IMG/VR virus record: IMGVR_UViG_3300044941_000073
Span: 1 to 21,929 of that record
Direction: 5' to 3' (one strand)
DNA from: a virus
Length of the DNA stretch: 21,929 nt
Made by a program: the position numbers and the translations under genes. Shown piece by piece: positions 6,195-21,929 of this stretch. Numbering within the stretch: position 1 is the stretch's first letter; every line of letters starts with the position of its first letter. The notes beneath the pieces were generated by a model that was not told the DNA's origin, made no database searches, and saw only the letters and a list, made by a program, of their open reading frames with translations.

Positions 6195-6195
6195 A

Positions 6196-9540: not shown

Positions 9541-10196
9541 CGCCTACCTCGGTACATGTTTGCTGAACCACGTGGTACGTACCGCTCCCGGTTTCGAAAT
9601 AGTTGCACCATCAGTTCAAACTCCTTGTCGTACTGTGCGGATAACCCTGCGTCATCAAGGTGACGAAGCACAAACAACGACAAGGCACGCTTGATAATCA
9701 ATGGCATAAACCTATCGGGTAACGGAAACTTGTGGGTGTCAAGCGTTGGTGGATTAAGGGCTTTAATCACGTCAAACTTAACCCGGTTCTGGTGCTGCAC
9801 AGTGGATGGTGCTACCGTAAGTCGAACAGCACCATATCCGTCCACTGTCCAGCACGCTCCAACTGGGTCACCAGTGGTAATAGGGATACGGTCAAAGTCT
9901 GAACTGTCCAGATACACCAATCTACGGTAGCCAGTAGATGGCTCACCGTAGAGTGCGCGTATTACCCGTTGCACGTTACCAAGTTCTGCTCGCTCACCAA
10001 CCCAGGAAATAGCACCAATCCGTTCACGCGTGAATGACCAGTCGTCAAGGAGCGACACCTCCAGGACGGCTTCCTGAAGGCATGCGGCAACCTTACGTGC
10101 TACTGGATTACTACCCAGTGTCAGCACTGGGCGTTCTCCAGCCATCAGCAAAACATCATTGCTTACCTCCAATAGTGTCTTGGTGCTACTTGCCAT
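9537..10196 (-). CDS. Tail tubular protein A (gp11-like adaptor)
   Basis: A 219-residue protein close in size to T7 gp11 (196 residues). The N-terminal helical part includes NPVARKVAACLQEAVLEV followed by DDWSFTRER, the arrangement seen in gp11-family adaptors (helical bundle, then a W-F turn at about residue 52). The C-terminal part (about 160-205) is again helical and highly charged. In the virion this family forms a twelve-subunit ring linking portal and nozzle. The location directly after the capsid gene and before tail tubular protein B is the canonical T7-like position. The start ATG shares one base with the capsid stop (TAATG), implying coupled translation; the stop overlaps the next start (ATGA). 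Confidence 0.85.
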   Translation of the reverse strand: MASSTKTLLEVSNDVLLMAGERPVLTLGSNPVARKVAACLQEAVLEVSLLDDWSFTRERIGAISWVGERAELGNVQRVIRALYGEPSTGYRRLVYLDSSDFDRIPITTGDPVGACWTVDGYGAVRLTVAPSTVQHQNRVKFDVIKALNPPTLDTHKFPLPDRFMPLIIKRALSLFVLRHLDDAGLSAQYDKEFELMVQLFRNRERYVPRGSANMYRGRR

Positions 10197-11254
10197 TATG
10201 CAGCTTCACCGCTTTCAATGATAACCGCACATTCAGGACGGTACACCTTGCAGCCATAGTACTGAGTGGTAACTACAGCATCAGCTTGAAACAGTACTTC
10301 TCGACTGCTTTCCACCTTGGGCTCTATACCCATCCAAAATGCTAGCCAATCGTTGTGGCACATAATAGCACTGTACTTGTTGGCAGCTAGGCTTGCGTGG
10401 GTGGTACCGTTAATTAACTCAGCATCATGCTGTCCACCTACTTTCTGTGCAGCAGTCCACTGACCAAGTGTTGATGCTGGATAGTAACGTGACAGTGGGT
10501 TACCACCGTTTGTGGTAGCCATGCCAGGAGTCGGGCCAAGTGGGTCGTTATCACCAATTCGAAAAACGTTACCCAAACTGTTTTTCTTGATAGCATTGGT
10601 GACCACAACTGGGATACCAAAAATGGTTCCCACTTGTCCAGTAACGACGGGTTTGTTGTCCACGTAAAACCCGTTAATGAACTGGTCAATCTGCAACAAA
10701 CTGGTGTATTGTGCCGGGCTCACAATTAATTTGACACCCTCCAGTGGTACATCTGCTTGTTCCAGTTTAAGTTTGGCTGCCAGTATTGACGCAAGTGTGA
10801 TGTTACCATTCACGTCAATCACGTTGTTCAATGCCTTGATAACTACCCTGTGTGCCAAAATCCAACTATCAATATCACGTGCCAGTGCTAAGCCTGCTTC
10901 CTCTGTGTAGATAGAACGTGCATCGTAGTTAGACTGGATAGCTGCAATGTCTTCAATCATGAATGAACTTTCCACGTAACGGTCACGTAGAAACGTGAAC
11001 TCTGTGGGTTGTCCATTCTGTAGGTTTACTGGTGTTTCTGCAACTTTGGGGTTGACGGCTAAGCGTCCTACTTTAGGTACGTGTAGTACGTCACCCTTTT
11101 TCATGCTGTCAGGTATGCGCTTCACATGGTCAAGCATGACCAGTGCTGAGTTTCGCGCGCGAATTATTTCTGAACTCCATAGTTCAGGTATAAACTTGTC
11201 AAGGTCACTCTGCTTAAACGCGCTACCAGAATAACCTCCTCCAGGTAAAGGCAT
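10196..11254 (-). CDS. Major capsid protein (HK97-type fold, T7-like podovirus)
   Basis: A 352-residue protein, the expected size for a T7-like capsid protein. Recognisable elements are an early FIPELWSSEI segment (about residues 21-30), a central helical spine region (DARSIYTEEAGLALARDIDSW, about 110-130), a segment LEGVKLIVSPAQYTSLL (about 172-188) and the FGIPVVVTNAI strand near residue 215, all typical of phage capsid proteins of this class. It has the best ribosome binding site in the cluster, AAAGGAGGAAACTA directly before ATG, and is one of the few genes not overlapping its upstream neighbour. Both features fit the need for high expression. No separate promoter is visible in the 19-base gap, so its level is presumably set by translation. 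Confidence 0.9.
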   Translation of the reverse strand: MPLPGGGYSGSAFKQSDLDKFIPELWSSEIIRARNSALVMLDHVKRIPDSMKKGDVLHVPKVGRLAVNPKVAETPVNLQNGQPTEFTFLRDRYVESSFMIEDIAAIQSNYDARSIYTEEAGLALARDIDSWILAHRVVIKALNNVIDVNGNITLASILAAKLKLEQADVPLEGVKLIVSPAQYTSLLQIDQFINGFYVDNKPVVTGQVGTIFGIPVVVTNAIKKNSLGNVFRIGDNDPLGPTPGMATTNGGNPLSRYYPASTLGQWTAAQKVGGQHDAELINGTTHASLAANKYSAIMCHNDWLAFWMGIEPKVESSREVLFQADAVVTTQYYGCKVYRPECAVIIESGEAA

Positions 11255-11273
11255 TAGTTTCCTCCTTTATGTG

Positions 11274-11810
11274 TTATCCGTTCATGTCTACCAAACCTTG
11301 AGCATACGCTTGTTGTATGTCACGCGCCTGCTTTTGGTACTCATCCCGTTTCATTGCCAAAATCTCAGACTGTTTGTAGCGGTAACGTCCGTTTGGTAAA
11401 CCACTTCCACCTGTGCCTCGGTCGAATTTTGGCACATCATTGCCGCTTTTCTTTTCCTCTTCAAGTAGTTGCTGATACAGGAATCGAGCACCATCGGTGT
11501 TGTCGTATATCGCTTGTAGGTGCGGAGGTAGTTGTCTAAAGCGCTCCTGCACCTTAGCAAAGATGGTGTCAAAGTTTTCACCCCACTCATCACGTAACGG
11601 CTTCAGTGCGTGGTACTGTCTACGTTCATCAATATACGCAAACCGTTGCTTGATTGGGTCTTGCTCTAACAGATAGCTGATAAACGCCTGTGCCGCTTCA
11701 GGTGTAATACCGTACTGTTCCAACGGGAAGCCAGTACCAAGTGTTGGTGTTGGTGTTGGTGTTGTGTCTACCGCAACGGGTTCATTGCTGTTTGTGATTT
11801 CTTCACTCAT
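11274..11810 (-). CDS. Putative scaffolding protein
   Basis: A 178-residue acidic-to-basic helical protein between portal and capsid genes, the standard position of the scaffold in T7-like phages. The N-terminus is low complexity (TTPTPTPT) and acidic. The middle is helical (about residues 35-125), and the C-terminus is basic (residues 130-178, with GRYRYKQSEI and MKRDEYQKQARD), as expected for a tail that contacts the capsid protein. It is shorter than T7 gp9 (307 residues). The ATG at 11810 overlaps the end of the portal gene by 8 bases. The function is inferred from position and composition only; no domain is recognised. Confidence 0.65.
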   Translation of the reverse strand: MSEEITNSNEPVAVDTTPTPTPTLGTGFPLEQYGITPEAAQAFISYLLEQDPIKQRFAYIDERRQYHALKPLRDEWGENFDTIFAKVQERFRQLPPHLQAIYDNTDGARFLYQQLLEEEKKSGNDVPKFDRGTGGSGLPNGRYRYKQSEILAMKRDEYQKQARDIQQAYAQGLVDMNG

Positions 11811-13737
11811 TGCTTTCTCCAGTTATTCCAAGATTTTGTAGTGATTGTTGCAACATTGCCTGACCACCATCAGTGGTTAGTTGTGCTTGCAGTGCTTGCT
11901 GTGCAGGTACTCCACCCACTGCTGCTGCTGATTCCATTACATCAGGATGTGCCATTACCGATTCTGTTGGTGCGGGTGGTTGTGGTTCTGGTTGTTTGAT
12001 GTACCGTTCGATATCATCAAACCCAAACCGCTTAGCCATATCCTTCATGACTTCAAGCCAGTTCATACGCTGCGCCATTTCAGGATTCTGCGATACCAAA
12101 CCAATAAAGTCAAGCCTGCGTTGTAACTCATACTCCTTGTCTGCAATGTGTCCTGCACCTACTGGTTCAATGTCAAAGTCATGCACCAATTCGTCAGCAC
12201 CTACCTTAACGTAAAGGTATTCGCCCGGTTGATAACCTGGAATTCGAATTACCTCATCCTCAGTCACAAACTGCTGGCACATACGATACACCTTACGCAG
12301 AACCGGGATAAGTGCTGTACTTTCAATGTGGTTGTAAATACCACCAAGTCGATTGCCGCCTGCGTCGCGCACAGCCTCTACCTCTTTTGCTGTTACGCGT
12401 TCTCCACCCCTACCCTGACCAACGCCAATGAACGCACCCGTACCAGTTACCTTGTCGATGTTCTGTTCTAGTACCGCAGCCTCTTGATAGGTGACCATGA
12501 ACTGTTGGTTGTGCTGGATTGGTCGAATGCTGTTATGGTCAGCCACTTCTATTAGTTTTCCAGGTGCGGTATAGATATCTTCAGGGTTGATAGTGCCGTC
12601 ATCAATGTACGTCCACATAGAGTCCACGCTTAGTTCCAGGTTATCCAGGCGTTGGTTGGTGACAATGGATAGTTCATGCAACAACCCCAGGACTGGTTCA
12701 ATCGCGCCAACACCATACGTTTGGTGGCATACGGGGATGTAAGTGCCAATCACAAATGGCTTACCCGCCCAGTACGGATTGTTTTCAAACTTAGCCACTT
12801 TGTCACCCAAACATGTAACCACTACGTCCTGGTAGTATCCTTGTCCTGTTTGAACGTTACCCCAAAATTCCAATAGTTCGACCATCTCATTGGGATTCCA
12901 CTCCATACCGTGAAAGCTGGCAACTACACGCTTGCTGTTGTGTTCAGCGTTGCCGCGGTAAGACACTACATCTTTTGGCTCTAGATATGGGTAAAAGCCA
13001 GCGTTGACTAGACGCATAAGCTCACCCTTAGACTTGGTGATACGCCTGATAAAGTTGGCTCGGTTAATATCGGTCACCTCATCCGGGTCAAGGTAGCAGT
13101 CGAACACGGAGAGTGTCTCAAACTCAGTCCCATTGTAGATGGTCTTTTGTACTGTCTTGGTTGTGAACGTGGTAGTTTGGGTTTCATCAGTCGGTGGATA
13201 CTCTACCTTAACCTTGGTTGTGTATGGTGCTAGCTCTTTGCGCCATGGTAGAGCCAGCACTGAGGTACCACAGATTAGTAGTTGGCGAATAAACATACCC
13301 CAATGTGATTTGAAGTTCGCCTGCTTCAGCTTGTACTTGAGGTACTTTTTGACAACTTCCGCTACCTCTAGGGAGCCTGAGTACATTGGCACCAAGTCGA
13401 ACCAATCCCGGTTGGGAAAGAAAGCGGATTGCAAGTAGCTGGAAATAGTCTCGACGTTTTCGAACGCCTTACCAGTCGATACCTTGTGCCTCCACGCTAC
13501 TGCTGCGTCTCCAACACTGCGTGACGCTAACCGTCGCGCGTGCTCTATTGCACGTGGGGAACCGTTGTACGCAGCCCAGCACTCAACCCAGATATCCTCT
13601 TTTTCTTGACGCGCGCGTTTATAGCGGTGAAACTCAGAACTCACAAACTCACCAACCGCAACTAGGTCTACGTCAGACTGACGTTGAGTCTCATCGCTCA
13701 GACTGACGTAGATGAAATCTTTATTCTTCAGTATCAC
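11803..13737 (-). CDS. Portal protein (head-tail connector)
   Basis: A 644-residue protein with the features of T7-like portals: helical N-terminus (VSSEFHRYKRARQEKEDIWVECW), then DAAVAWRHKVSTGKAFENVETISSYL near residues 76-103, a mid-region VFDCYLDPDEVTDINRANFIRR (about 208-229), and a Pro/Gln-rich C-terminal tail (PEPQPPAPTESVMAHPD). It would assemble as a dodecameric ring at the DNA-packaging vertex and serve as docking site for the terminase encoded immediately upstream. Translation starts at GTG 13737, which overlaps the terminase TGA (GTGA) and sits behind GGAGGAG. The stop lies 8 bases inside the scaffold candidate. Terminase directly followed by portal differs from T7, where terminase is at the far end of the late region. 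Confidence 0.9.
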   Translation of the reverse strand: MILKNKDFIYVSLSDETQRQSDVDLVAVGEFVSSEFHRYKRARQEKEDIWVECWAAYNGSPRAIEHARRLASRSVGDAAVAWRHKVSTGKAFENVETISSYLQSAFFPNRDWFDLVPMYSGSLEVAEVVKKYLKYKLKQANFKSHWGMFIRQLLICGTSVLALPWRKELAPYTTKVKVEYPPTDETQTTTFTTKTVQKTIYNGTEFETLSVFDCYLDPDEVTDINRANFIRRITKSKGELMRLVNAGFYPYLEPKDVVSYRGNAEHNSKRVVASFHGMEWNPNEMVELLEFWGNVQTGQGYYQDVVVTCLGDKVAKFENNPYWAGKPFVIGTYIPVCHQTYGVGAIEPVLGLLHELSIVTNQRLDNLELSVDSMWTYIDDGTINPEDIYTAPGKLIEVADHNSIRPIQHNQQFMVTYQEAAVLEQNIDKVTGTGAFIGVGQGRGGERVTAKEVEAVRDAGGNRLGGIYNHIESTALIPVLRKVYRMCQQFVTEDEVIRIPGYQPGEYLYVKVGADELVHDFDIEPVGAGHIADKEYELQRRLDFIGLVSQNPEMAQRMNWLEVMKDMAKRFGFDDIERYIKQPEPQPPAPTESVMAHPDVMESAAAVGGVPAQQALQAQLTTDGGQAMLQQSLQNLGITGESNE

Positions 13738-15347
13738 CGCACTCCTCCATAGCGTTGATTAATGTTATAGTGCTGACGTATTCGCTTGCGCCTGCTACTC
13801 ATAACACCATTACGGGTAGGTGTCGCCGATTGACAAATCATCACCATCCCGTCAAGACAGTCATCGTGTGCCCCACTTCTAGGAAAAAACTGAATCTCTT
13901 CCATAAGGATGGTATTTTTGGCCATCCAAGTCATCAGGTAAACTTGGTGATTTACAAACAACGGTTCCAAGTACGTAACGATACGTGCTTTCTTTTCTCC
14001 TTCTGCACGGTACTCACGTAGCGCAACTGGCTTAAACCTGCTGAACGATTGACGTATGGTGTACATCAACGCTTGACCAAGTTTCTCGTTATCAATGGTC
14101 AAGGCGTTCAATTTCCACCTGTCCACTAGCTCAAACACCAACCGCACTGTTTCTTCTGGCTTGAACTTACCTACCTTTAGGTCAAACAGATAAAGACTTC
14201 TGTTGGAGTCCAGTCCACCAACCATGAGCACAGTATTGTCAGCACGTTTACTTTGCGAGATAGCTGGGTCAACTACTAGAATCGGCTTTACTCTAGTTGG
14301 CGGGGAATTGTGACTGGTACGTATCTCGATGACACCATCATCCTTGATGATAAGTTGTGATGGATTAATGTACTGAATGTTATCCGCGTTCAGTACTGTT
14401 TCTTCATCCGTCATTATTGTGTTCAAATACTGTGAGGCAAACCGTCGCATACCGTTAGGCAACCTCATCAGTCTTGACTTTAAACGTGATACTACCTCGG
14501 CGTTGAATCGCTCAGGCCATAAATACCCGTCACTGTCATCCTTGCCGTTGGCGTAGATGTTGCGCTTGAAAACTGCATAGTCCTCACTACCGTCACCCTG
14601 TTCTTCATCCGATAAATCCTCACCCGTGTAAACACCATACAAGTCACGGTAGTAGTAGCGGGTACCCAGAATCAGAAACTCTCCACCTAGGTCGGTGTCA
14701 GGGTTGTATGGGTCGATGACACTCTCAACGTCACCAACCCAGTCCATAATCTTTTCCCGTCGTTCTGCTGTCTGACTGTTCTCAAACGTAACCACGTCAT
14801 CCAAAATCGCTATGTCAAAGTGGAAGCCAGTCGATGGGCTGCCAACTGATGCCGCTAACAGTGTTGGCTCCTTCATAATTTTGGGACGCAGTACCTGGAT
14901 TGCATCCACGCGCCATACGGTTTTACGGTCAACTTCCTCATCACCTGCTGACTGGTTATCAAGTTGTGGAATTAATCTACCGTATCGAGGGTGTGTATTC
15001 CAAACGGTTTCCTGAAGATGGGTGTCTTCCAAGTACTGTTTGACTTCACGCACAAACGAAGTCGCAAGTGGTTTGGTCGCAGTCCCTACCAGAATGCGAA
15101 TACATGGGTTCTGGTAGATACGCCATAGGACGTAGCCTACTGAACACAGTGTAGACTTAAGGTGACCACGTGGCATAAGCACCAACCGTCTAGGGTGTTG
15201 GTGTCGGTCAGCGATGAACGCAGCCAGTTCCTTGTGGATGGTACTGAACGACTTGGTACCTCCTTTAAAGTTAATCAGGTCTATGAAGTCCCAGTAGGAC
15301 TCCATAGCCTGCACCTTTTTGCGGTAAAGTGATTTACTTTCCGTCAT
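13734..15347 (-). CDS. terL: Large terminase subunit (ATPase and nuclease)
   Basis: The motor that pumps DNA into the prohead and cuts concatemers. Numbering from ATG at 15347 (537 residues): Walker A-like LMPRGHLKST at about 57-66, the T7-like form lacking the classic GxxxxGK; Walker B DIAILDD at about 178-184; coupling motif LGTRY at about 227-231. The RNase H-like nuclease has DP in ILVVDPAIS (D360), the acidic pair in TIDNEK (about 419-421), and HDDCLD at about 494-499. All expected catalytic residues are present. The frame extends upstream to 15404, but that would overlap the holin candidate by 71 bases. ATG 15347 overlaps it by only 14. ATG 15305 (behind AAAGGTG) is a second alternative. 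The stop overlaps the portal's GTG. A small terminase is not recognised; see the coiled-coil proteins just upstream. Confidence 0.93.
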   Translation of the reverse strand: MTESKSLYRKKVQAMESYWDFIDLINFKGGTKSFSTIHKELAAFIADRHQHPRRLVLMPRGHLKSTLCSVGYVLWRIYQNPCIRILVGTATKPLATSFVREVKQYLEDTHLQETVWNTHPRYGRLIPQLDNQSAGDEEVDRKTVWRVDAIQVLRPKIMKEPTLLAASVGSPSTGFHFDIAILDDVVTFENSQTAERREKIMDWVGDVESVIDPYNPDTDLGGEFLILGTRYYYRDLYGVYTGEDLSDEEQGDGSEDYAVFKRNIYANGKDDSDGYLWPERFNAEVVSRLKSRLMRLPNGMRRFASQYLNTIMTDEETVLNADNIQYINPSQLIIKDDGVIEIRTSHNSPPTRVKPILVVDPAISQSKRADNTVLMVGGLDSNRSLYLFDLKVGKFKPEETVRLVFELVDRWKLNALTIDNEKLGQALMYTIRQSFSRFKPVALREYRAEGEKKARIVTYLEPLFVNHQVYLMTWMAKNTILMEEIQFFPRSGAHDDCLDGMVMICQSATPTRNGVMSSRRKRIRQHYNINQRYGGVR

Positions 15348-15522
15348 CCCGGTCGTCACCCTTGTTGCGGGTTTCTCTTGGTACCTCAGCACCAAAAAAT
15401 CCACAGACTGCGCCAGTAGCTAGCGCAATAAACTCTCTGCGATAACTACGGTCCAATATTGCAAGTGTCAGTGCACCAACCAGTGCCACTACAACGATGA
15501 AACTCTTGACCACGCGTGTCAC
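15334..15522 (-). CDS. Small two-membrane-segment protein, holin candidate
   Basis: A 62-residue protein with two predicted membrane segments: about residues 8-24 (FIVVVALVGALTLAIL) and about 31-47 (FIALATGAVCGFFGAEV). A very charged C-terminus follows (PRETRNKGDDRDDGK). Size, topology and charged tail fit a class II holin, and the position just before the large terminase matches the T7-like lysis cluster. It starts at GTG 15522, overlapping the upstream stop in GTGA, and ends inside the terminase gene. Alternatives are a small spanin-like or other inner-membrane protein. There is no sequence family I recognise. Confidence 0.6.
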   Translation of the reverse strand: MTRVVKSFIVVVALVGALTLAILDRSYRREFIALATGAVCGFFGAEVPRETRNKGDDRDDGK

Positions 15523-15971
15523 CCCATAATATTTTGACGCGTGAACTGTACTGGTAAGTAAGCAGTACTGAACACGCGTTGACGGTTTTGCTGTTGCTGG
15601 GTGTTGCGTCTTGCTCCCATTATTGACAGCAACTTGTTTGCCTCTTGTATGCTTTTCTCTTGCTCGTTGCGTGCCAGGATTGCTTGACGTTGACGCTCAG
15701 CATCTACAGCTTTTTGTTGTTCCTCTTGCTGTTTGGCAAGCGCTTCCAGGTAGCGGGTTTGTTCTGCGCGTGATGCCTCCAATGCCGCTATCTGCTGCTG
15801 GTACAAACCCAGCATTTGATTGTATTGTTCAGCCTGCTGTGCTGTCTGCTGTTGAATCAGTTGTTGTTCTCGCACGCGTGCTTCATCAGCAAGACGTTGT
15901 TGTTCCTGCATCGCGCGTACCATTTCCGGTGTAATCGCGCTACTGACTTTTGTTGGTTTTGGCTTGCGCAT
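15519..15971 (-). CDS. Gln-rich coiled-coil protein, function unknown (possible small virion protein or small terminase)
   Basis: About 150 residues. From about residue 15 to 125 it is an almost uninterrupted Gln/Glu/Ala/Arg-rich helix with coiled-coil character, and it ends in a short non-helical tail (STAYLPVQFTRQNIMG). The start at ATG 15971 is chosen because GGAGGT precedes it at good spacing; the longer GTG start at 15986 would place that ribosome binding site inside the gene. It overlaps the upstream gene by 32 bases and the holin candidate by 4. Composition resembles the 374-residue internal virion protein at 5070-6194, so a structural role is plausible. Position before terminase also allows a small terminase role. 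Neither is supported by a motif. Confidence 0.6.
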   Translation of the reverse strand: MRKPKPTKVSSAITPEMVRAMQEQQRLADEARVREQQLIQQQTAQQAEQYNQMLGLYQQQIAALEASRAEQTRYLEALAKQQEEQQKAVDAERQRQAILARNEQEKSIQEANKLLSIMGARRNTQQQQNRQRVFSTAYLPVQFTRQNIMG

Positions 15972-16242
15972 TCGACTTACCTCCACGCCTGCGCTGTTCG
16001 TAGTATCGTTGCAATCCTTCCCGTTGCTTGCGAGCTATCTCAAACCGCTTAAAGTAGGTTTCCAGTTCCCGTCCTACTTCAGCCTGCTGTTGCCGCATGC
16101 GTTCTAGAAACGACTGTGGTGATGTTAACGCCTGCGCTACCTCTTCCATTGCAGCCAGGGTGTTATCTGCATCCGTTTGGGTGTCACTGCTGTTGTGGTT
16201 GCTGTTGTCGTTCTCTGCTAAAGAAATGAGTCCAGATTCCAT
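15940..16242 (-). CDS. Small hydrophilic helical protein, function unknown
   Basis: The N-terminus is Asn/Asp/Ser-rich (SLAENDNSNHNSSDTQTDAD). After about residue 30 it becomes a charged helix (LERMRQQQAEVGRELETYFKRF, then YYEQRRRGGKSNAQAK) with a basic C-terminal tail that could bind nucleic acid. The reading frame stays open upstream to 16443, deep inside the peptidase gene, so the start is uncertain. ATG 16242 gives a 59-base overlap with the peptidase. ATG 16248 and ATG 16149 are alternatives, and none has a strong ribosome binding site. It is a second candidate for a small terminase because of its size, coiled helix and place upstream of the large subunit. Confidence 0.45.
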   Translation of the reverse strand: MESGLISLAENDNSNHNSSDTQTDADNTLAAMEEVAQALTSPQSFLERMRQQQAEVGRELETYFKRFEIARKQREGLQRYYEQRRRGGKSNAQAKTNKSQ

Positions 16243-16735
16243 TGTCATCCGTGAGTTGTAGAAATCGTCGATAGCTGAGCCAGTACACTTTTGGTGCACT
16301 GGTATCGTACCCATTGGGCCACCATTCACCGTATGGGTCATGTATCCGTACTTGGTTGGTGCTGTCATCGTACCCGGTAACACAAACAATGTGTCCTGAA
16401 CGCGTGAAGTACCCGTGAACCACGCACGGGAAAGCTGCGTCAATGTTTAGCTTAATGTCGTTCAGGATTGCGTCTTCTGCAAACACGTCCACAATTGGTG
16501 GTTTAAGTCTGGCACCATACTCGTTGGCTATCTGCTGTAGGTGGTACGGATTGTGCCTGCTTAGTCCCTTGCGCTTAAGTGCCAGATTGATTTGGTCTTC
16601 GAGTTGACCATTACCGTCGCCACGAATACCAAAATAGTAAAGGCACATAGCAATGCACGTCACGTTGCATGAACCGTATGGGTCAAACTTGTTGTCAAGC
16701 TGACCGAATAGCGGAAAATTCTTTAGAGTACGCAC
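16184..16735 (-). CDS. C39-like cysteine peptidase (papain-like fold)
   Basis: A 183-residue protein with the order expected for the C39-like peptidase family (Peptidase_C39_2): oxyanion glutamine Q12 in FGQLDN, catalytic C23 in GSCNVTCIAM, histidine H115 in SGHIVCVTGYD and aspartate D133 in HDPYGEW. All four key residues are present, so it should be active. No signal peptide or membrane segment is visible, and the C-terminus is a Gln-rich tail (QQQPQQQ). Translation starts at GTG 16735 behind AAGGGG. It is the first gene of the long leftward virion/lysis block, just downstream of a terminator. Possible roles are cell-wall endopeptidase (lysin), virion maturation protease or attack on a host protein. 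Peptidase identity is well supported; the substrate is unknown. Confidence 0.8.
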   Translation of the reverse strand: MRTLKNFPLFGQLDNKFDPYGSCNVTCIAMCLYYFGIRGDGNGQLEDQINLALKRKGLSRHNPYHLQQIANEYGARLKPPIVDVFAEDAILNDIKLNIDAAFPCVVHGYFTRSGHIVCVTGYDDSTNQVRIHDPYGEWWPNGYDTSAPKVYWLSYRRFLQLTDDNGIWTHFFSRERQQQPQQQ

Positions 16736-16774
16736 AGTTACCCCTTGATTGGTTTACATCCGTGTAGTAGCTGC

Positions 16775-16810
16775 ACAATAAAAGAAACCACCGGGTACGT
16801 ACCCAGTGGT
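16775..16810 (-). terminator. Intrinsic terminator, leftward
   Basis: An inverted repeat at 16787-16810 pairs ACCACCGGGTAC with its near-perfect complement (one mismatch). Read leftward it is followed directly by TTTCTTTTATT. It lies between the gene ending at 16837 and the peptidase gene starting at 16735, so it should end transcription from the promoter at 17297-17325. Confidence 0.8.
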
Positions 16811-16836
16811 ATTTGCGAGTTACCCGTGACTACACG

Positions 16837-17265
16837 TTACAGCAGTGTTTCCAGTTCGCACCACCGCGCAGTCAAGGATTGGGAGGAATCTCCAGCAATG
16901 AAGCCGCCTCCTACCTGACCGTCATGGATATGAACGAAGCGCTTGCTAACAGAACGACGAGCCAGTAGCTGCGCGCGCAAAAACGAAAATGTCATGGTGA
17001 CCAGGTAGCACCCGTATGAGTCATCGTACCTTTTTACCACGAGCAATCCATCTGCGGGTACAGCACCAACCGTTTCAGCAAGGGCTGCGTGTACATCCTT
17101 TATGGACGGGTAGGGGTGCCCGTTTCCGGTATCGACCAACCGCACGCGCGGTTCATAATCTGGTATGACCACGTAACCGTTACGTGCATCGGTGTAAGGT
17201 ACATACGCAAACCCGTAGTTTCTTGCGTACCCTATGGCTTCCCTTAGTTGTCTCTTGGAGAGCAT
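16837..17265 (-). CDS. Small protein of a three-member phage paralogue family (member A)
   Basis: 142 residues, no recognised domain. It shares a pattern with the products at 20842 and 21244: an N-terminal helix, then a Gly-aromatic segment (YGFAYVPY), GYVV (30-33), an ADGLLVV strand (71-77), YGCYLV (84-89) and a late F-V/I-H-I/V strand (RFVHIHDGQV, 109-118). It is longer than the other two by a Gly/Ser-rich C-terminus. The frame is open upstream to 17418, but ATG 17265 is chosen because GGGAGGTGG lies just before it and because the promoter at 17297-17325 would otherwise be inside the gene. It appears to be a one-gene unit: own promoter, own terminator at 16775-16810. The homology to the other two is by eye and weaker than that between those two. 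Confidence 0.75.
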   Translation of the reverse strand: MLSKRQLREAIGYARNYGFAYVPYTDARNGYVVIPDYEPRVRLVDTGNGHPYPSIKDVHAALAETVGAVPADGLLVVKRYDDSYGCYLVTMTFSFLRAQLLARRSVSKRFVHIHDGQVGGGFIAGDSSQSLTARWCELETLL

Positions 17266-17296
17266 ATCGTGCCACCTCCCAATAACTACACCCACA

Positions 17297-17325
17297 ATAT
17301 AAAACACCCACCCAGGTGTTGTCAA
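17297..17325 (-). promoter_or_regulatory. Leftward sigma70 promoter with ACACC..GGTGT dyad in its spacer
   Basis: Read leftward: TTGACA (17320-17325), 17-base spacer, TTATAT (17297-17302). The spacer holds the dyad ACACC-N6-GGTGT (17304-17319), a shortened version of the 20-bp dyad seen elsewhere. The predicted RNA start is about 25 bases before ATG 17265. Confidence 0.75.
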
Positions 17326-17357
17326 GTGGGTGGGTGAGTGAGGAAGTAGGTTAACGA

Positions 17358-18023
17358 TTAGTAGGCCAACTTTAGATACTCGCTTGGCACAATGTCCAGT
17401 AGCGCCTGTAATTCGCACGGTTGGATGCCAAGACTGAGTGCAACAAATGTGGTGTCGTTTGCAACCCTGGCATAGAGTGAACCAGTTATCGTGGTCGTTG
17501 CAGCGTCACCACCACTCCATACATCGTAGATGTTCTGGGTTATTACCAGTGGTCTGCGGTCAAGGTTGTACATGATGCAATGCGCAAGGCTGCGACGATT
17601 TTGGTCAGTAACCACCTTGTCAATATCTGTGTCACTCTTGACGTTGCGGTAGCAGTCAAGCGCAGTCCTGACTTGACGGTTGGTGACACCCCCAGTCAGG
17701 TTTACATCGTCTCCCATCCGAATTGCGCGGGTAACCAGTTTTTCCAGATTGGAAAACGTCACGTCCCACCCATGCTTGGTGTTGTGAATCACCGCTAGCA
17801 TAGCGGCTACCGTAGCCTTGTCAATATCAAGGTACTTGGCCATACTGTCAGAGCGACGGGAAAGCCCCTTGTAGAATTCAGTGGCACCACAGATTTGGTC
17901 ATCAGTGGCACCCAACGCAACATCCAGAAGACGTTGCTTGTGTGGGGTGTTAATCCGCTTCAAAACGGATTGCGATAGATTCTGCCGCAGGTATTCACGG
18001 TTATAAAAGTATTTGTGGTTCAT
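17358..18023 (-). CDS. Unknown helical protein, early/middle gene
   Basis: 221 residues with no family that I recognise and no signal peptide or membrane segment. It is mostly alpha-helical by composition. Two stretches could be helix-turn-helix-like (SDSMAKYLDIDKATVAAML about residues 57-75; FVALSLGIQPCELQALLDIV near the C-terminus), but neither is a convincing match. Two basic patches (RINTPHKQR; RQVRTALDCYRNVK) might bind nucleic acid. The frame is open to 18104, but ATG 18023 is preferred because GGAGG lies five bases before it and the longer form would overlap the upstream gene. It follows the 81-residue gene by 13 bases, so both are likely read from the promoters at 18313 and 18428. Confidence 0.75.
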   Translation of the reverse strand: MNHKYFYNREYLRQNLSQSVLKRINTPHKQRLLDVALGATDDQICGATEFYKGLSRRSDSMAKYLDIDKATVAAMLAVIHNTKHGWDVTFSNLEKLVTRAIRMGDDVNLTGGVTNRQVRTALDCYRNVKSDTDIDKVVTDQNRRSLAHCIMYNLDRRPLVITQNIYDVWSGGDAATTTITGSLYARVANDTTFVALSLGIQPCELQALLDIVPSEYLKLAY

Positions 18024-18036
18024 CGGTGCCTCCAAG

Positions 18037-18282
18037 TTACCAGACAAGGGTGTAAACGTCAGATGGGTCATAGGTTGGCTCATCAAGGGCAATGACCTCA
18101 GCAAAGTCAGTTAGTCCAGCACAGACTTTGTCCATGATTGCAGGCGTGGCATCAGTAACAAGTAGGTACATACCACATACCGGATTGATGTTGACATTGG
18201 CGTTGAAGCCATAGGAGCGTAGCTTGTCAACTACCGTGTTGTAGATTTCAAGACTGTCGGTGAAGAGTTCGAATTCGTTCAT
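18037..18282 (-). CDS. Small acidic protein, function unknown; first gene of leftward unit
   Basis: 81 residues, acidic (many Asp/Glu, few Lys/Arg), with a predicted alpha-beta pattern: helix EIYNTVVDKLRSYGF, strand GMYLLVTD, helix AIMDKVCAGLTDFAEVI. The YGF followed by GMYLLV faintly recalls the N-terminal half of the paralogue family at 16837, 20842 and 21244, but I would not claim homology. GGAG lies nine bases before ATG 18282. The predicted RNA start of the nearest promoter is about 24 bases upstream. Small acidic early proteins of phages often bind or inhibit host proteins; that is only a possibility here. Confidence 0.7.
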   Translation of the reverse strand: MNEFELFTDSLEIYNTVVDKLRSYGFNANVNINPVCGMYLLVTDATPAIMDKVCAGLTDFAEVIALDEPTYDPSDVYTLVW

Positions 18283-18312
18283 ATCTAGCTACTCCTTTCA
18301 TTTGTTGACTCA

Positions 18313-18341
18313 AGTCTAACACCCATCCCGGTTGGTGTCAA
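18313..18341 (-). promoter_or_regulatory. Leftward sigma70 promoter with 20-bp operator dyad
   Basis: Read leftward: TTGACA (18336-18341), 17-base spacer, TAGACT (18313-18318). The dyad ACACC-N10-GGTGT occupies 18319-18338, overlapping the end of the -35 and filling the spacer. A bound repressor here would block polymerase. It drives the genes at 18282 and 18023. Confidence 0.8.
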
Positions 18342-18427
18342 CCCCTTATGCGGCAAAAGAGTTGCGGTTTGGAGGCAATGTGACGTGCACTGACGGAAGT
18401 AAGAAAATAGTACCAGTGACTTTTGGC

Positions 18428-18456
18428 ATTGTACCCCGGCCGCCCGATTTTGTCAA
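18428..18456 (-). promoter_or_regulatory. Second leftward sigma70 promoter without the dyad
   Basis: Read leftward: perfect TTGACA (18451-18456), 17-base spacer, TACAAT (18428-18433, 5 of 6). The spacer is GC-rich and lacks ACACC..GGTGT. It would read into the promoter at 18313 and the leftward small genes, giving an unregulated or differently regulated entry. Confidence 0.75.
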
Positions 18457-18522
18457 CCCCCCTTGTGACACTTTTTCCTGTTACAATTCGTTACCTATCA
18501 AAATCCCTTATCATTCGCCCCA

Positions 18523-18727
18523 TTCGATAAGTTATCCGCGCGCTTCGATAAGTTATCCGCACCACTGTATCCGCATTCGATACGATATCGCCAATGCTCC
18601 AAACGCCCATGCAGAGAGGGTTTCAGCGATTAGTGCCCGCGAATCGCCAATGAATTCGGTAAATTGCAACCCGTTACGATAAGATATTTCCGATAAAATT
18701 GTGCTCCGTTCGATAAGGAAAACAAAT
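18523..18727. repeat. TTCGATAAG repeat cluster with a 17-bp pair 21 bp apart
   Basis: TTCGATAAGTTATCCGC occurs exactly at 18523-18539 and 18544-18560, offset by 21 bp, about two helical turns. Each contains the palindrome GATAAGTTATC. Degenerate relatives follow: TATCCGCATTCGATA near 18568-18582, ACGATAAGA and CCGATAAAA around 18677-18698, and TTCGATAAGG around 18709-18718. GTTATCCGC is near but not equal to the DnaA box TTATCCACA. It looks like a protein-binding cluster (regulator or initiator). Confidence 0.7.
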
Positions 18728-18767
18728 GGATGCAAATGGAAGGCCATATAAAGTGTCACAATACCCC

Positions 18768-18803
18768 TTGACGGGGGGGTCACGGCCATGGTATAATGGC
18801 CGT
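18768..18803 (+). promoter_or_regulatory. Rightward promoter with perfect inverted repeat around its -10
   Basis: TTGACG (18768-18773), 18-base spacer, TATAAT (18792-18797) preceded by TGG (extended -10). The 8-bp arms ACGGCCAT (18782-18789) and ATGGCCGT (18796-18803) bracket the -10, so a regulator would occlude it. No gene starts within the next 2 kb; any transcript would be non-coding and run through the repeat region. Confidence 0.7.
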
Positions 18804-18900
18804 CACGCCGCTAGAATCCGCACATATTTTCATACGCGCAGAGCAATCGTGACCGTTACTTCTGTACCGTGCAACGTAATCGCGCACCCGTACCTGTCAC

Positions 18901-18949
18901 TGTCTATACCTTTTTGCTACAGAAAGACGCTGTCAGAATCGCCTGTAAG
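18901..18949 (+). repeat. 49-bp repeat, copy 1
   Basis: Shares the skeleton TGTCTA..C..TTT..CTACAGA.A...C..TCAGAATCGCCTGTAAG with the copies at 20187 and 20467, without gaps over 49 bp. It is the most diverged copy and the similarity stops at 18949. Confidence 0.75.
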
Positions 18950-19110
18950 CCGTCCAGATACCGTTCAGGTACCGTAACCCCAGAAACAAATTTCAGACGT
19001 ACTACAGAGCCAAATAACGCGCGTAAAGTGACACCATACGGTACCGATTGAGGTGTTTATCCAGCAACCATCATAAAGTAACGTACTTCTGTCACGGGTA
19101 CCCGGCACCT

Positions 19111-19828
19111 TGTAACCCTGCGTCACGTGTACCCGATTGCTGTTGATTGTGACACCCACCTACGGTATCTTGTCACGCGTGCTTGTGGTTTCTGTCACCT
19201 GCGTATCTCTATTCGTGCACGTATCACCTTGTCACATGTACACGGTTGCCGTCACAGTCACAGGTTTGGTGTCACCTTATTCGTGTATCTGTACTTTGTT
19301 ACGTGTACCTGGTTGCTGTTGATATGACACCCACACAGAAGATACTTCTGTTGCTGCATAACACCCATCCGTATTGGTGTCACTGTACGTATTACCATGT
19401 AACTTCTGTCACGTATTACCGTATATCTGTTGCTGTTGATGATTGTGACACCCATACAGTCATGGTTAAGTATCTCTATGCAACAACACTCTACAGTAAG
19501 TACCATGTAACTTCTGTCACGTGTACTTGTGGTTGTTGTTGATATGACACCCCTAAGTCTTGATTGGTGTCATTATTACGCATAATGGCTACTTGTGCTT
19601 ATGCGTAAGTATTTCTATGCAACAACAGCAATACCTATCGCTATGTAACTTAAGTACTATGTAACTCCTATTACTGTTGCTGTTATATAACACCCATACC
19701 GTATAGGGGTGTCACTTTCTCGGTAACTAAACTACCTGGTACGTATTATCATGTAACTTTTGTCACGTAGTACTATGTAACTCCTGTTGTTGTTACTGTA
19801 TAACACCTACCCATATTGGTGTCACTAT
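19111..19828. repeat. Array of operator-like dyads and iterons
   Basis: Three interleaved elements recur. (1) ACACC..GGTGT dyads at 19361-19380 and 19803-19822 (20 bp, the same spacing as in the promoters at 18319 and 20792), 19690-19712 (ACACCC..GGGTGT, 23 bp) and 19545-19572 (TGACACC..GGTGTCA, 28 bp), plus half-sites near 19150, 19328 and 19447. (2) TGTCACGTGTAC-like blocks, followed in several units by TTGCTGTTGAT and a TGACACCC half-site, at about 19122, 19299, 19408 and 19516. (3) TGTAAC at 19111, 19399, 19506, 19644, 19660, 19752 and 19776. Unit spacing is irregular, about 110-180 bp. Several dyads read leftward resemble weakened promoters (GTGACA, 17 bases, TATGCA or TATACA). Confidence 0.75.
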
Positions 19829-19900
19829 TACGCATAAATACTACTTGCAAGTATATTGGTAATTATTTTTTTCTATGCAACAGCAGCAATATGTAACAAG

Positions 19901-19978
19901 GTACTACTGAACACTAGAGTTACATAGTACTACTGAACACTAGAGTTACATAGTACTACTGAACACTAGAGTTACATA
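19901..19978. repeat. Three perfect tandem copies of a 26-bp repeat
   Basis: The unit begins GTACTACTGAACACTAGAG and ends TTACATA; copies start at 19901, 19927 and 19953, and a fourth begins at 19979 but diverges after GTACTAC. Each copy holds GTTACA (reverse of the TGTAAC iteron) and each junction makes the palindrome TAGTACTA. The period is about 2.5 helical turns. Identity between copies suggests recent expansion. Confidence 0.95.
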
Positions 19979-19990
19979 GTACTACGTAAC

Positions 19991-20058
19991 AAGATAATAC
20001 TAGATACAAGTAATATATTAAATTATTATTTTTATATAATACAACAACAACAACAACA
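19991..20058. other. AT-rich stretch followed by CAA microsatellite; candidate unwinding element
   Basis: 19991-20042 contains only 6 G or C in 52 bases. It runs into CAA repeats (20041-20058). It lies directly beside the 26-bp tandem repeats. An easily melted stretch beside iterons is the usual arrangement at replication origins; this is inference. Confidence 0.5.
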
Positions 20059-20186
20059 CAACTAGAGACTTTCGTACAAAACTACCTACCCCCACTCCAT
20101 AGCCTCTCCCCCTCCCACGCGCCAAACAACACCACTCCCTTTCCGGTTGGGGTGTCACCAAAACGGCACTTACGGCCATTGCCATG

Positions 20187-20299
20187 TGTCTATGGCTTTT
20201 TCCTATAGAGAAACCCTCTCAGAATGACCTGTAAGGTGTTTGTACCCCCTTCTGGCTAGTACAGTACCCTTACCAGTTAAAGGCGGCCTTCCTGAGCCT
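20187..20299 (+). repeat. 113-bp direct repeat, copy 2 of the 49-bp family
   Basis: Aligns without gaps to 20467-20579 at an offset of exactly 280 bp. It contains CCTATAGAGAAACCCTCTC and later CTTCCTGAGCCT. The first 49 bp also match 18901-18949. Weaker similarity continues upstream, where both copies follow a CCGG(A/T)TGGG(G)TGTCAC segment. Confidence 0.8.
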
Positions 20300-20466
20300 G
20301 CTAGATGCCACAGAGACCACAAACGACCAGTGGGTACAGTACCAGTTACGGCACCCGGTTGCGATTGCCATATTCCCACTTGCCGGATGGGTGTCACGCT
20401 CTCCTTTGCCGCTTGGTGGTTGTACCGTTGCGGTTGTCATATCGCTCCCATTACCGCCTGCCCCTG

Positions 20467-20579
20467 TGTCTACAGCCTTATCCTACAGAAAAACCCTCTC
20501 AGAATCGCCTATAAGACACTTGACACCCCTTTTGGCTACCACAATACCTTGACCAGATTACTGGCACCTTCCTGGGCCT
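20467..20579 (+). repeat. 113-bp direct repeat, copy 3 of the 49-bp family
   Basis: Same skeleton as 20187-20299, with CCTACAGAAAAACCCTCTC and CTTCCTGGGCCT. Unlike copy 2 it contains TTGACACCCC (20519-20528), a half-site of the ACACC dyad with a -35-like hexamer but no -10 at usable spacing. Confidence 0.8.
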
Positions 20580-20604
20580 TACAGTAGCCATAGCGGTGAC
20601 GTTT

Positions 20605-20690
20605 GGCGAATACCTGTAGCCCATAGGTGAATACCTACATCCACCCGTGCACCTACCCCCACATCCGCAGCCAGGCGGTGAACACCTGCA
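20605..20690. promoter_or_regulatory. Operator-like cluster GGYGAAYACCTRYA, three copies
   Basis: GGCGAATACCTGTA (20605-20618), GGTGAATACCTACA (20626-20639) and GGTGAACACCTGCA (20677-20690). Start-to-start distances are 21 and 51 bp, roughly whole helical turns, so the sites face one side of the DNA. The core GGTGAACACC of the third is a perfect dyad. The cluster lies directly upstream of the tandem promoters at 20696-20765, a place suited to an activator or repressor. Confidence 0.6.
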
Positions 20691-20695
20691 CCCGG

Positions 20696-20726
20696 TACCG
20701 TAGTTACACGTAGAGTTTGGTATAAT
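20696..20726 (+). promoter_or_regulatory. Rightward extended -10 promoter, first of a tandem pair
   Basis: TATAAT at 20721-20726 preceded by TGG (extended -10); the -35 region is CCGTAG, far from consensus. GTAGTTAC (20700-20707) and GTAACTAC (20730-20737) form an inverted repeat bracketing the -10. It matches the copy at 20735-20765 in 25 of 31 positions. Confidence 0.6.
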
Positions 20727-20734
20727 CGCGTAAC

Positions 20735-20765
20735 TACCGTAATTATACGTGGGTTCTGGTATAAT
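20735..20765 (+). promoter_or_regulatory. Rightward extended -10 promoter, second of a tandem pair
   Basis: TATAAT at 20760-20765 with TGG in front, -35 region CCGTAA, 39 bp downstream of its twin. With a poor -35 in both, activation by a factor bound at the conserved TACCGTA or ACGT motifs is plausible. It would read into the gene at 20842. Confidence 0.6.
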
Positions 20766-20788
20766 TTAGAACAGCACCAAGCAGGCGA

Positions 20789-20817
20789 TTGACACCCACC
20801 GGGATTGGTGTTATTCT
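20789..20817 (+). promoter_or_regulatory. Rightward sigma70 promoter with 20-bp operator dyad
   Basis: Perfect TTGACA (20789-20794), 17-base spacer, TATTCT (20812-20817, 5 of 6). The dyad ACACC-N10-GGTGT (20792-20811) fills the spacer and abuts the -10. The predicted RNA start near 20824 leaves a short leader before ATG 20842. Confidence 0.85.
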
Positions 20818-20841
20818 GTTGCTGTTGAGTTGAGGGTGGAT

Positions 20842-21192
20842 ATGACAATCAACAATGCACTGGATGTTGCTCGTCGCAACGGGTATGCGTTTCTGTGGAA
20901 TAATGGCGATAAGTCACCTTACACTGGCTATGTCGTTGTGGATTATGCATCGTACGTTGAGTTCCCAGCAGAAGACGTTTCAGCAGATAACGTGCTGGCT
21001 GCGGTTGACGGTTGGAGCGGCGATGGTCTTTACTTTGCACTCAGCCACGATAGACTCTACCGTGGGTTTATCTACGTTTATCCAGTTGTACAAGCACCAA
21101 CCTTCAAGGATGTTTGTCGGTTTGCGCTTGAACCTGAATTGACATTCTTGCGCGTGGAAAACGACCAAAAAGTTTGCACACTTACCACTTGA
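20842..21192 (+). CDS. Small protein of a three-member phage paralogue family (member B)
   Basis: 116 residues, no recognised domain. Side by side with the product at 21244: NGYAFLWNNGDKSPYTGYVV (13-32) matches VGHSLVWYNTSKPFRGYML; VDGWSGDGLYFALS (55-68) matches IDGYNGYDALFMVS; RGFIYVYPV (74-82) matches EGVIYVHPV; FLRVENDQKVC (102-112) matches FIHVVDNKPVC. The two are clear paralogues, about 120 residues of alpha-beta character ending near a conserved VC. ATG 20842 is preferred to TTG 20830 because the RNA start is predicted near 20824 and GAGGGTGG precedes the ATG. No membrane segment or catalytic motif is visible. Small size and tight promoter control suggest an early host-interaction or regulatory role, unproven. 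Confidence 0.8.
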   Translation: MTINNALDVARRNGYAFLWNNGDKSPYTGYVVVDYASYVEFPAEDVSADNVLAAVDGWSGDGLYFALSHDRLYRGFIYVYPVVQAPTFKDVCRFALEPELTFLRVENDQKVCTLTT

Positions 21193-21217
21193 CAACTAAC
21201 CGTAGGGGTGTCACAAT
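21189..21217 (+). promoter_or_regulatory. Rightward sigma70 promoter overlapping the previous stop codon, half operator
   Basis: Perfect TTGACA (21189-21194), sharing bases with the TGA of the preceding gene, 17-base spacer, CACAAT (21212-21217, 4 of 6). Only the right half of the dyad, GGGGTGT (21205-21211), is well kept; the left side is ACAACTAACC. Confidence 0.6.
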
Positions 21218-21243
21218 ACTATTGTTGTTGCATAGGTGATATC

Positions 21244-21606
21244 ATGTTTCTTGAACGAGTTGAGGCTGCACTGGAACAAGTCAAGTCTGTTGGTCACTCA
21301 CTAGTTTGGTACAATACCAGCAAGCCGTTTCGCGGGTATATGTTGGCCAGACATGACAAGTGTGTTTCAATAACACATGACACTACTGCTACGGAGCTAC
21401 TTGACGCAATACGCGGAATCGACGGATATAATGGGTACGATGCCCTTTTCATGGTGAGTAACGAAGATGAGGGTGTAATCTATGTGCACCCAGTCTCGAA
21501 AGTGCGCAATTTCTATAAGGCACTAGATGCTGCACGTGGTACTGTAACCAAGTCGTTTATCCATGTTGTTGATAACAAACCAGTGTGTATCTGTGAAGCA
21601 GTGTAG
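21244..21606 (+). CDS. Small protein of a three-member phage paralogue family (member C)
   Basis: 120 residues, clear paralogue of the product at 20842 (shared GxxxxWxN..K.F.GY, IDGYNG, GVIYVHPV and a terminal F.HV.NKPVC), and a more distant relative of the product at 16837 (shared F-V/I-H-V/I strand, GY segment). The N-terminal helix MFLERVEAALEQVKSVG is amphipathic. The start at ATG 21244 follows AGGTGAT; the frame extends upstream to a GTG at 21208, which would lie in front of the predicted RNA start. The next gene follows after 11 bases, so the ribbon-helix-helix protein is probably co-transcribed. Having its own promoter despite following member B closely suggests the two are meant to be controlled as separate cassettes. 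Function unknown. Confidence 0.8.
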   Translation: MFLERVEAALEQVKSVGHSLVWYNTSKPFRGYMLARHDKCVSITHDTTATELLDAIRGIDGYNGYDALFMVSNEDEGVIYVHPVSKVRNFYKALDAARGTVTKSFIHVVDNKPVCICEAV

Positions 21607-21617
21607 GAGTGGAACCA

Positions 21618-21782
21618 ATGCGCAAGCGTACATTCTTGATTAGTCTAGATGAGTCAACACTTGACGAATTGCTGCGTGTTGCGTATGACCGTGTAGGCGG
21701 AAACATATCAGAGTTCATCCGTCGCGCTATCCATGCTGAACTAGACCGTATTCGCAATGGCAATGAAGAGGTAACGCTATGA
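21618..21782 (+). CDS. Ribbon-helix-helix DNA-binding protein (CopG/Arc-like), candidate repressor
   Basis: 54 residues: a short N-terminal strand RKRTFLISL (2-10), helix DESTLDELLRVAYDR (11-25), turn GGN, helix ISEFIRRAIHAELDRIRN. This is the length and order of ribbon-helix-helix repressors; the strand side chains around residues 3-9 would read bases in the major groove of a dimer. Such proteins bind short inverted repeats, often in cooperative arrays, and commonly repress their own operon. AGGAGTGG lies before ATG 21618. It sits between two promoters carrying parts of the ACACC..GGTGT dyad, so it is the obvious candidate reader of that operator; this link is inference. A toxin-antitoxin antitoxin is an alternative, but no partner toxin is visible here. 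Confidence 0.8.
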   Translation: MRKRTFLISLDESTLDELLRVAYDRVGGNISEFIRRAIHAELDRIRNGNEEVTL

Positions 21783-21811
21783 ACAGGATTACAGAGTCAA
21801 TACCAAGGCGG

Positions 21812-21841
21812 TTGACAAACCACCCTTAGGGGTGTTATCGT
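21812..21841 (+). promoter_or_regulatory. Rightward sigma70 promoter with degenerate operator
   Basis: Perfect TTGACA (21812-21817), 18-base spacer, TATCGT (21836-21841). The spacer has ACCCTTAGGGGT, a shortened form of the dyad (right arm GGGGTGT kept). The predicted RNA start falls in or near a second palindrome, CGTCAGACTGACG (21839-21851), which could be an additional operator. Confidence 0.65.
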
Positions 21842-21871
21842 CAGACTGACGAGTTGGCGGAGTCGATAGTT

Positions 21872-21929
21872 GTGAACACGCGTCGAGAACAATTCCTGAG
21901 TGACTGGTGTGGCGGACACAAGTCCGAGC
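21872..21929 (+). CDS. Start of a further rightward gene, cut by window edge
   Basis: A frame open from GTG 21872 to the edge (19 codons, beginning VNTRREQFLSDWCGG). GGCGGAG lies nine bases before the GTG, and a promoter at 21812-21841 is correctly placed. Too short to identify; it could be chance. Confidence 0.35.
   Translation, partial: MNTRREQFLSDWCGGHKSE

Follow-up and report, generated by a model that had tools for sequence, protein, structure and literature searches.

A switch in which the operator overlaps the core promoter is a textbook design, as with P22 Arc/Mnt and lambda OR/OL. The element described here, the inverted repeat ACACC-N10-GGTGT (hereafter the dyad), occurs in a virus sequence of 21,929 bases (IMG/VR record IMGVR_UViG_3300044941_000073; this whole stretch is called the window) and resembles those systems in that a palindrome that would block RNA polymerase lies between the -35 and -10 elements and in that a small ribbon-helix-helix (RHH) protein, as in Arc, is the candidate to read it. 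It differs in that one and the same site is built into five promoters, spread over the two arms of the sequence, and is accompanied by a variably spaced array, and in that the protein is a candidate only. The second system for comparison is the stoperators of cluster A mycobacteriophages. There a monomer binds 13-mers that are asymmetric and oriented, many of them in short intergenic gaps where they halt elongation (PMC9283540). The likeness is that one family of sites is dispersed in the genome, with some members in promoters (PMC9283540), whereas the sites in the window form a palindrome, TNACACC-N10-GGTGTNA, locked to the -35/-10 frame. A first-pass annotation, made from the letters of this DNA, had likened the sites to stoperators; by the description of stoperators in PMC9283540 this likeness is not supported, as the site is palindromic rather than asymmetric and oriented, and the one exact N10 site in 1–17,295 lies inside a gene rather than in a short gap of a transcribed block. 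What is new is thus a putative operator set in a phage related to the Saffermanviridae, while the core-promoter operator switch itself is known; its recurrence, described below, is of interest. Judged from literature listings, no report of such promoters in Saffermanviridae was found.

All five promoters predicted in the first-pass annotation are in place, each with a perfect TTGACA. Two face leftward: P1 (17296–17325, minus strand; TTGACA ACACCTGGGTGGGTGTTT TATATT) has an 18 nucleotide (nt) spacer with ACACC-N6-GGTGT and lies 30 nt upstream of an ATG at 17265, and P2 (18313–18341, minus strand; TTGACA CCAACCGGGATGGGTGT TAGACT) has a 17-nt spacer with ACACC-N10-GGTGT and lies 30 nt upstream of an ATG at 18282. 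Three face rightward: P3 (20789–20817, plus strand; TTGACA CCCACCGGGATTGGTGT TATTCT), with a 17-nt spacer, ACACC-N10-GGTGT and 24 nt to an ATG at 20842; P4 (21189–21217, plus strand; TTGACA ACTAACCGTAGGGGTGT CACAAT), with a 17-nt spacer, TGACA-N14-TGTCA containing GGGGTGT, and 26 nt to an ATG at 21244; and P5 (21812–21841, plus strand; TTGACA AACCACCCTTAGGGGTGT TATCGT), with an 18-nt spacer, AGGGGTGT, and 30 nt to a frame that opens at a GTG at 21872 and continues past the window end. One dyad is therefore found at a fixed -35/-10 place in several promoters, as annotated, with the complete N10 form in two of the five (P2 and P3); P1 has the N6 form, and in P4 and P5 the left arms are shifted or degenerate, P5 keeping one good arm. 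The feature common to all five is the onset of GGTGT at 17, 18, 18, 18 and 19 bases past the start of the -35. P2 and P3, which point in opposite directions, are identical at 18 of the 20 dyad bases and have unlike flanks, and a TG directly precedes the -10 in P2 to P5. The leaders from -10 to start codon are uniform at 24–30 nt, which argues that the promoters are genuine.

The dyad was strongly enriched. Five exact copies of ACACC-N10-GGTGT are present in the window against 0.06–0.09 expected, and simulated sequences held at most 1, 2 and 2 copies for Markov orders 1, 2 and 3, respectively (400 runs each); within 16800–21929 there are four against 0.02–0.04 expected. Exact TTGACA occurs 32 times, seven times between genes and 25 times inside them, by a split that uses an author-chosen list of 18 frames. 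GGTGT follows 12–26 bases past TTGACA at 5 of 7 intergenic and 0 of 25 intragenic copies (Fisher's exact test, P=1e-4), with an intergenic background of 4.9 %, and none of 5,000 draws of seven random intergenic segments yielded a 5-mer common to at least five of them. In the whole window eight promoters match the consensus at 10 or more of its 12 bases; none of them lies within 1–17,295, and five carry GGTGT. The half-site TGACACC showed the same bias, with 16 of 31 copies in intergenic sequence, which makes up 14 % of the window (P=9e-7).

When P2, P3 and P4 were combined into a symmetric matrix, its top five matches in the window fell at 20790, 18317, 19359, 21190 and 19801, all intergenic, three of these being its own training sites. 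Rank six, at 22.1 bits, is a site inside the terminase gene, after which scores fall to 13.9. Strong matches are thus not as common in late genes as in promoters, one of the top six being in a gene, and the site is rare inside genes. The gene copy, overlooked by the first-pass annotation, is the fifth exact N10 dyad of the window (13804–13823) and the sole one in 1–17,295. It is probably there by chance, because the left half of the site (13802–13825) codes for ATPTR, which is conserved in the terminase family. The annotated dispersed regulon under one repressor is borne out in its first part, as the top five matrix matches and the absence of GGTGT after intragenic TTGACA indicate a promoter-embedded site; its second part, the repressor, has a candidate only.

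The dyad is, with somewhat better than an even chance, a core-promoter operator. One arm overlaps the -35 (TTGACACC) and the other ends at the -10 (GGTGTTA), and a dimeric or tetrameric protein on both arms would cover what sigma-70 RNA polymerase needs and so exclude it. A single phage protein could in this way turn down at once the leftward promoters P1 and P2, which point towards the terminase–capsid block, and the rightward promoters P3 to P5, and so act on both genome arms. An activator site, at which a MerR-like protein on the spacer remodels the promoter, would also place a palindrome between -35 and -10. However, MerR-type promoters have spacers of 19–20 nt, while those here are 17–18 nt and already optimal, so that no remodelling activator is needed, and no MerR match was detected among nine proteins scanned against Pfam; we regard an activator as quite improbable. 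The dyad might instead function in RNA, as a hairpin or as a terminator or stoperator on read-through transcripts. All seven sites fold (-4.3 to -9.6 kcal/mol), but their z-scores against shuffled sequences are just -0.12 to -1.83, the dyad stands upstream of its own promoter's start, and the sites track promoters, leaving an RNA role with very little probability. Repression is favoured because a protein bound to the arms would block polymerase, the spacers are optimal and the RNA folding is unremarkable. A self-encoded small repressor acting on the promoters of both arms would, if true, be a simple answer to how genes are timed in these podoviruses.

The likeliest protein is the 54-residue RHH product of 21618–21782 (plus strand), encoded behind the first gene of P4. 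P4 stands upstream of this gene, so that the product might limit its own synthesis through P4. That this protein reads the dyad is a tentative proposal, to which we give slightly less than an even chance. It matches RHH_1 (PF01402) at 20.9 bits, above the curated cut-off of 20.5, and PHROG gave two weak matches (E=0.06 and 0.22), both annotated as transcriptional repressors. A monomer model, predicted with no alignment (pLDDT 78.6, pTM 0.46), has an extended N-terminus with no strand assigned in residues 1–11 and helices at 12–26 and 28–46; an extended N-terminus followed by two helices would suit an RHH monomer. Searches of IMG/VR and of phage records gave no relatives of the RHH gene. Nor was RHH_1 detected in any of 12 further records, namely 11 relatives recognized by a terminase match and one phage of another group, described below.

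The leftward and rightward arms are separated by a 2.5-kb divergent region that is non-coding and rich in degenerate repeats, TGACACC half-sites among them (18283–20841, the array). Both dyads reported outside good promoters, at 19361–19380 and 19803–19822, are present, as TAACACC-N10-GGTGTCA at 19359–19382 and 19801–19824. Variant dyads overlooked by the first-pass annotation lie at 19031–19056 (ACACC-N16-GGTGT), 19547–19570 (N14), 19690–19712 (N13) and 20129–20155 (N17), so that the array dyads outside P2 and P3 have spacings of 10, 10, 13, 14, 16 and 17. Under the operator reading these would be further binding places, for titration or cooperative loading, or decayed promoter copies. The region further holds ten GTTACAT boxes in both orientations (19386–19985) against one in the rest of the window, which bear a possible resemblance to the cyanobacterial HLR1 element, and some of them lie within a 26-bp tandem repeat at 19901–19985. 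The two members of a 132-nt repeat pair (20182–20313 and 20462–20593) agree at 72 %, and 49 nt of the repeat recur a third time at 18901–18949. Three perfect TGGTATAAT extended -10 boxes, at 18789, 20718 and 20757, are all without a dyad, and by eye a rightward promoter at 18768–18803 has a perfect TATAAT between the arms of its own dyad, ACGGCCAT/ATGGCCGT, with no ACACC site. At the late-gene edge of the array (18517–18717), TTCGATAAG occurs three times and TTCGATACG once, two of them followed by TTATCC; these repeats are possibly DnaA-box-like.

For the array, the functions of origin, packaging region and binding reservoir all come into question. If it were an origin or centromere-like, the sites would serve a replication initiator or partition protein, and the promoters would be autoregulated by that same protein, as in iteron plasmids. 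The repeats, the half-sites and the low G+C content of 19501–20000 (35.8 %) fit such a function, and small RHH proteins also serve as plasmid partition proteins. Against it, no initiator or ParA-like gene was detected among 16 proteins scanned, a subset of the frames (without 6196–9540, for example), the array spacing is irregular, and a different word, GTTACAT, is also strongly enriched; we therefore hold replication or partition to be an unlikely primary function of the sites.

Several observations weigh against a core-promoter operator, and the main alternative is shared ancestry combined with promoter grammar. Under that alternative promoter–gene cassettes were duplicated, TTGACA and the extended -10 (TGnTAnnnT) are nearly symmetric by themselves (TGACA/TGTTA), and the dyad marks no regulator. 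The 116-residue protein behind P3 (20842–21192, plus strand) is indeed a paralogue of the 120-residue protein behind P4 (21244–21606, plus strand; 28 % identity, E=1e-10), and the 142-residue protein behind P1 (16837–17265, minus strand) is a possible third paralogue (E=4e-4 to 4e-3 against 21244–21606, in a comparison of nine proteins). The P3 query began at 20845, one residue short, and the P1 query at 17268, one residue too long. As the products are paralogous, possibly including that of P1, the likeness of P1, P3 and P4 may partly have been inherited along with the genes, and the TG before the -10 in P2 to P5 belongs to the promoter grammar. On the other side, the inner CC/GG of the dyad falls outside the promoter consensus, GGTGT is absent both from the 25 intragenic TTGACA copies and from the strong promoters at 18456 (minus strand) and 18768 (plus strand), the exact dyads at 19361 and 19803 have no good promoter, and the 81-residue protein behind P2 (18037–18282, minus strand) has no detectable kin among the nine window proteins compared. 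Ancestry with promoter grammar thus retains a minor yet appreciable share of the probability.

The other adverse points concern the sites and the protein. Three of the promoters, P1, P4 and P5, have weak dyad arms. P5 and P1 score 10.0 and 5.8 on the matrix, under several matches in genes, because their spacing differs, which weighs against one rigid site; in the array, too, the spacing varies to an extent that a rigid dimer would tolerate poorly. No good promoter accompanies two of the array dyads or many of the half-sites, and the strong promoters at 18456 (minus strand; an intergenic TTGACA without GGTGT) and 18768 (plus strand) lack the site; GGTGT is likewise missing at the intergenic TTGACA at 20520 (plus strand). 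As for the protein, its RHH_1 match is barely over the cut-off, its model had no convincing match in the PDB (best Foldseek E value 1.2; VIA-align Z up to 5.8), and the window is without most early genes, so that other regulators are possible. No known RHH protein was among the Foldseek and VIA-align matches listed; these were large RNA polymerase subunits and one weak transcription factor, and were left unused for their weak scores.

The same layout recurs in unrelated uncultivated phages, at least one of them with a T4-type capsid gene, to judge from their sequences. A scan of IMG/VR with GACACCNANNNGNNTNGGTGTTA gave 20 matches in 19 stretches. Seventeen of the matches are preceded by TT, making TTGACA although TT was not in the pattern; these 17 include a contig of the same species as the window (L005), and among the others there are several mutual copies. 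The form of most remaining matches is TTGACACC-AAGACGTATT-GGTG[T/C]TA, which was present in at least two places (up to five) in 5 of 11 such records when whole records were searched with one mismatch allowed. With stricter settings, a second scan located the TTGACACC-AAGACGTATT-GGTGYTA form in 37 stretches, which belong to 33 contigs. The outermost core bases were complementary in 18 of 19 distinct sites of the first scan (A/A 15, G/G 2 and T/T 1), the exception being P2 itself; the first pattern left these bases free, while the second forced them, and its sites were not counted. At all 35 sites the longest frame starting 35–84 nt past the -35 start begins at 35–69 nt and has 32–185 codons, although a frame search of that kind nearly always yields some start. 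These phages thus resemble that of the window in having a -35-to--10 dyad before small frames, and differ in being unrelated to it and in having another dyad core (the TTGACACCAAGACGTATTGGTGYTA site). Such a design may be favoured by the near-symmetry of the -35 and the extended -10, as the recurrence suggests. It is conceivable, though we think it unlikely, that unrelated phages independently built the same switch, with half-sites equal to the -35 TTGACACC and the extended -10 GGTGTTA and with the fixed 17-bp spacing of the polymerase setting that of the repressor, and that in the phage of the window the array, filled with the same site, links this switch with replication or with partition.

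RHH_1 was not detected in any of four records with TTGACACC-AAGACGTATT-GGTGYTA promoters. The T4-type capsid PF07068 was found in one of six records of this other group, which does not support a T4-like label for the whole. Two isolates with small proteins in common with the group, Melnitz and phiM12, had no dyad in the 49.9 and 45.0 kb read, a result against wide conservation; the group is presumably marine, as Melnitz comes from Bermuda. A scan of genome contigs gave one match, in a Clostridiales metagenome-assembled genome, with a promoter-like TTGACA-17-TATACT, which is weak because the pattern itself demanded TTGACACC. When the literature was searched for the core word, no paper with a title on phages came up. 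Strong promoters of the form TTGACACC-AAGACGTATT-GGTGYTATA, with symmetric arm variants, stand before small frames in L191 (3082–4318), L192, L193, L199, L211, L222 and other records.

The window itself is, from its gene content, a fragment of a podovirus related to the cyanophages of Saffermanviridae, podoviruses whose hosts are filamentous cyanobacteria. This kinship rests, within the 21.9-kb fragment, on the terminase, which shares 44 % identity with its Pf-WMP3 and LPP-2 counterparts and 40 % with the A-4L protein, and on the order of late genes with divergent arms, which agrees with Pf-WMP3 when compared by eye. The leftward arm, from about 18.3 kb, codes for small proteins, a C39-like peptidase, terminase, portal or adaptor, scaffold, capsid and tail proteins, and a large protein with a peptidase domain; the rightward arm consists of small genes from 20.8 kb. 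Podoviruses of this type presumably rely on host RNA polymerase, and none is annotated in Pf-WMP3 or A-4L, though many genes there are unnamed. No close relative of the window was found by megablast among the phage records compared, no relatives of the P3 protein in IMG/VR, and none of the P4 protein or of 17358–18023 in phage records. No exact match in IMG/VR was found for DNA close to the window's right end, and Rfam at gathering scores and ARAGORN returned nothing on the window. L005 has 17 differences in 14,460 bases and spans 4058–18517 only; none of the 17 falls in P1 or P2, too few for a test of constraint.

The promoter dyads were also sought in related records, many of which are fragments. 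Ten relatives had six sites with up to two mismatches, in five of the ten records and none with fewer than two, while a reversed control pattern gave two matches per strand in two of the ten, so that the dyad is at about the control level. A single exact ACACC-N10-GGTGT was present in 8 of 164 related loci, some of them overlapping (L034–L037, L087, L105, L114 and L118), in no case after TTGACA; a bare dyad thus also arises by chance, a further point against the operator reading. These counts are consistent with both the promoter dyad set and the RHH gene being private to the source phage in the set examined, a pattern with one positive case. Other repeats in these records were inspected. A promoter-spacer word of L007, ACACGACAACA, was rejected by eye, as several of its 14 places immediately precede start codons, while others fall within genes. 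The same word or ACACAACAACA recurs in L007 (with L090 and L091) and in L094, by eye often just 5' of early-gene starts, and is perhaps a translation leader element. Repeated dyads were found in 21 records, and those viewed (L096, L147, L085 and L086) were by eye unlike promoter sites. L096 has a hairpin, CTAGC-GGGGGGACTAA-GCTAG, at 4410, 4713 and 6661, between small early genes.

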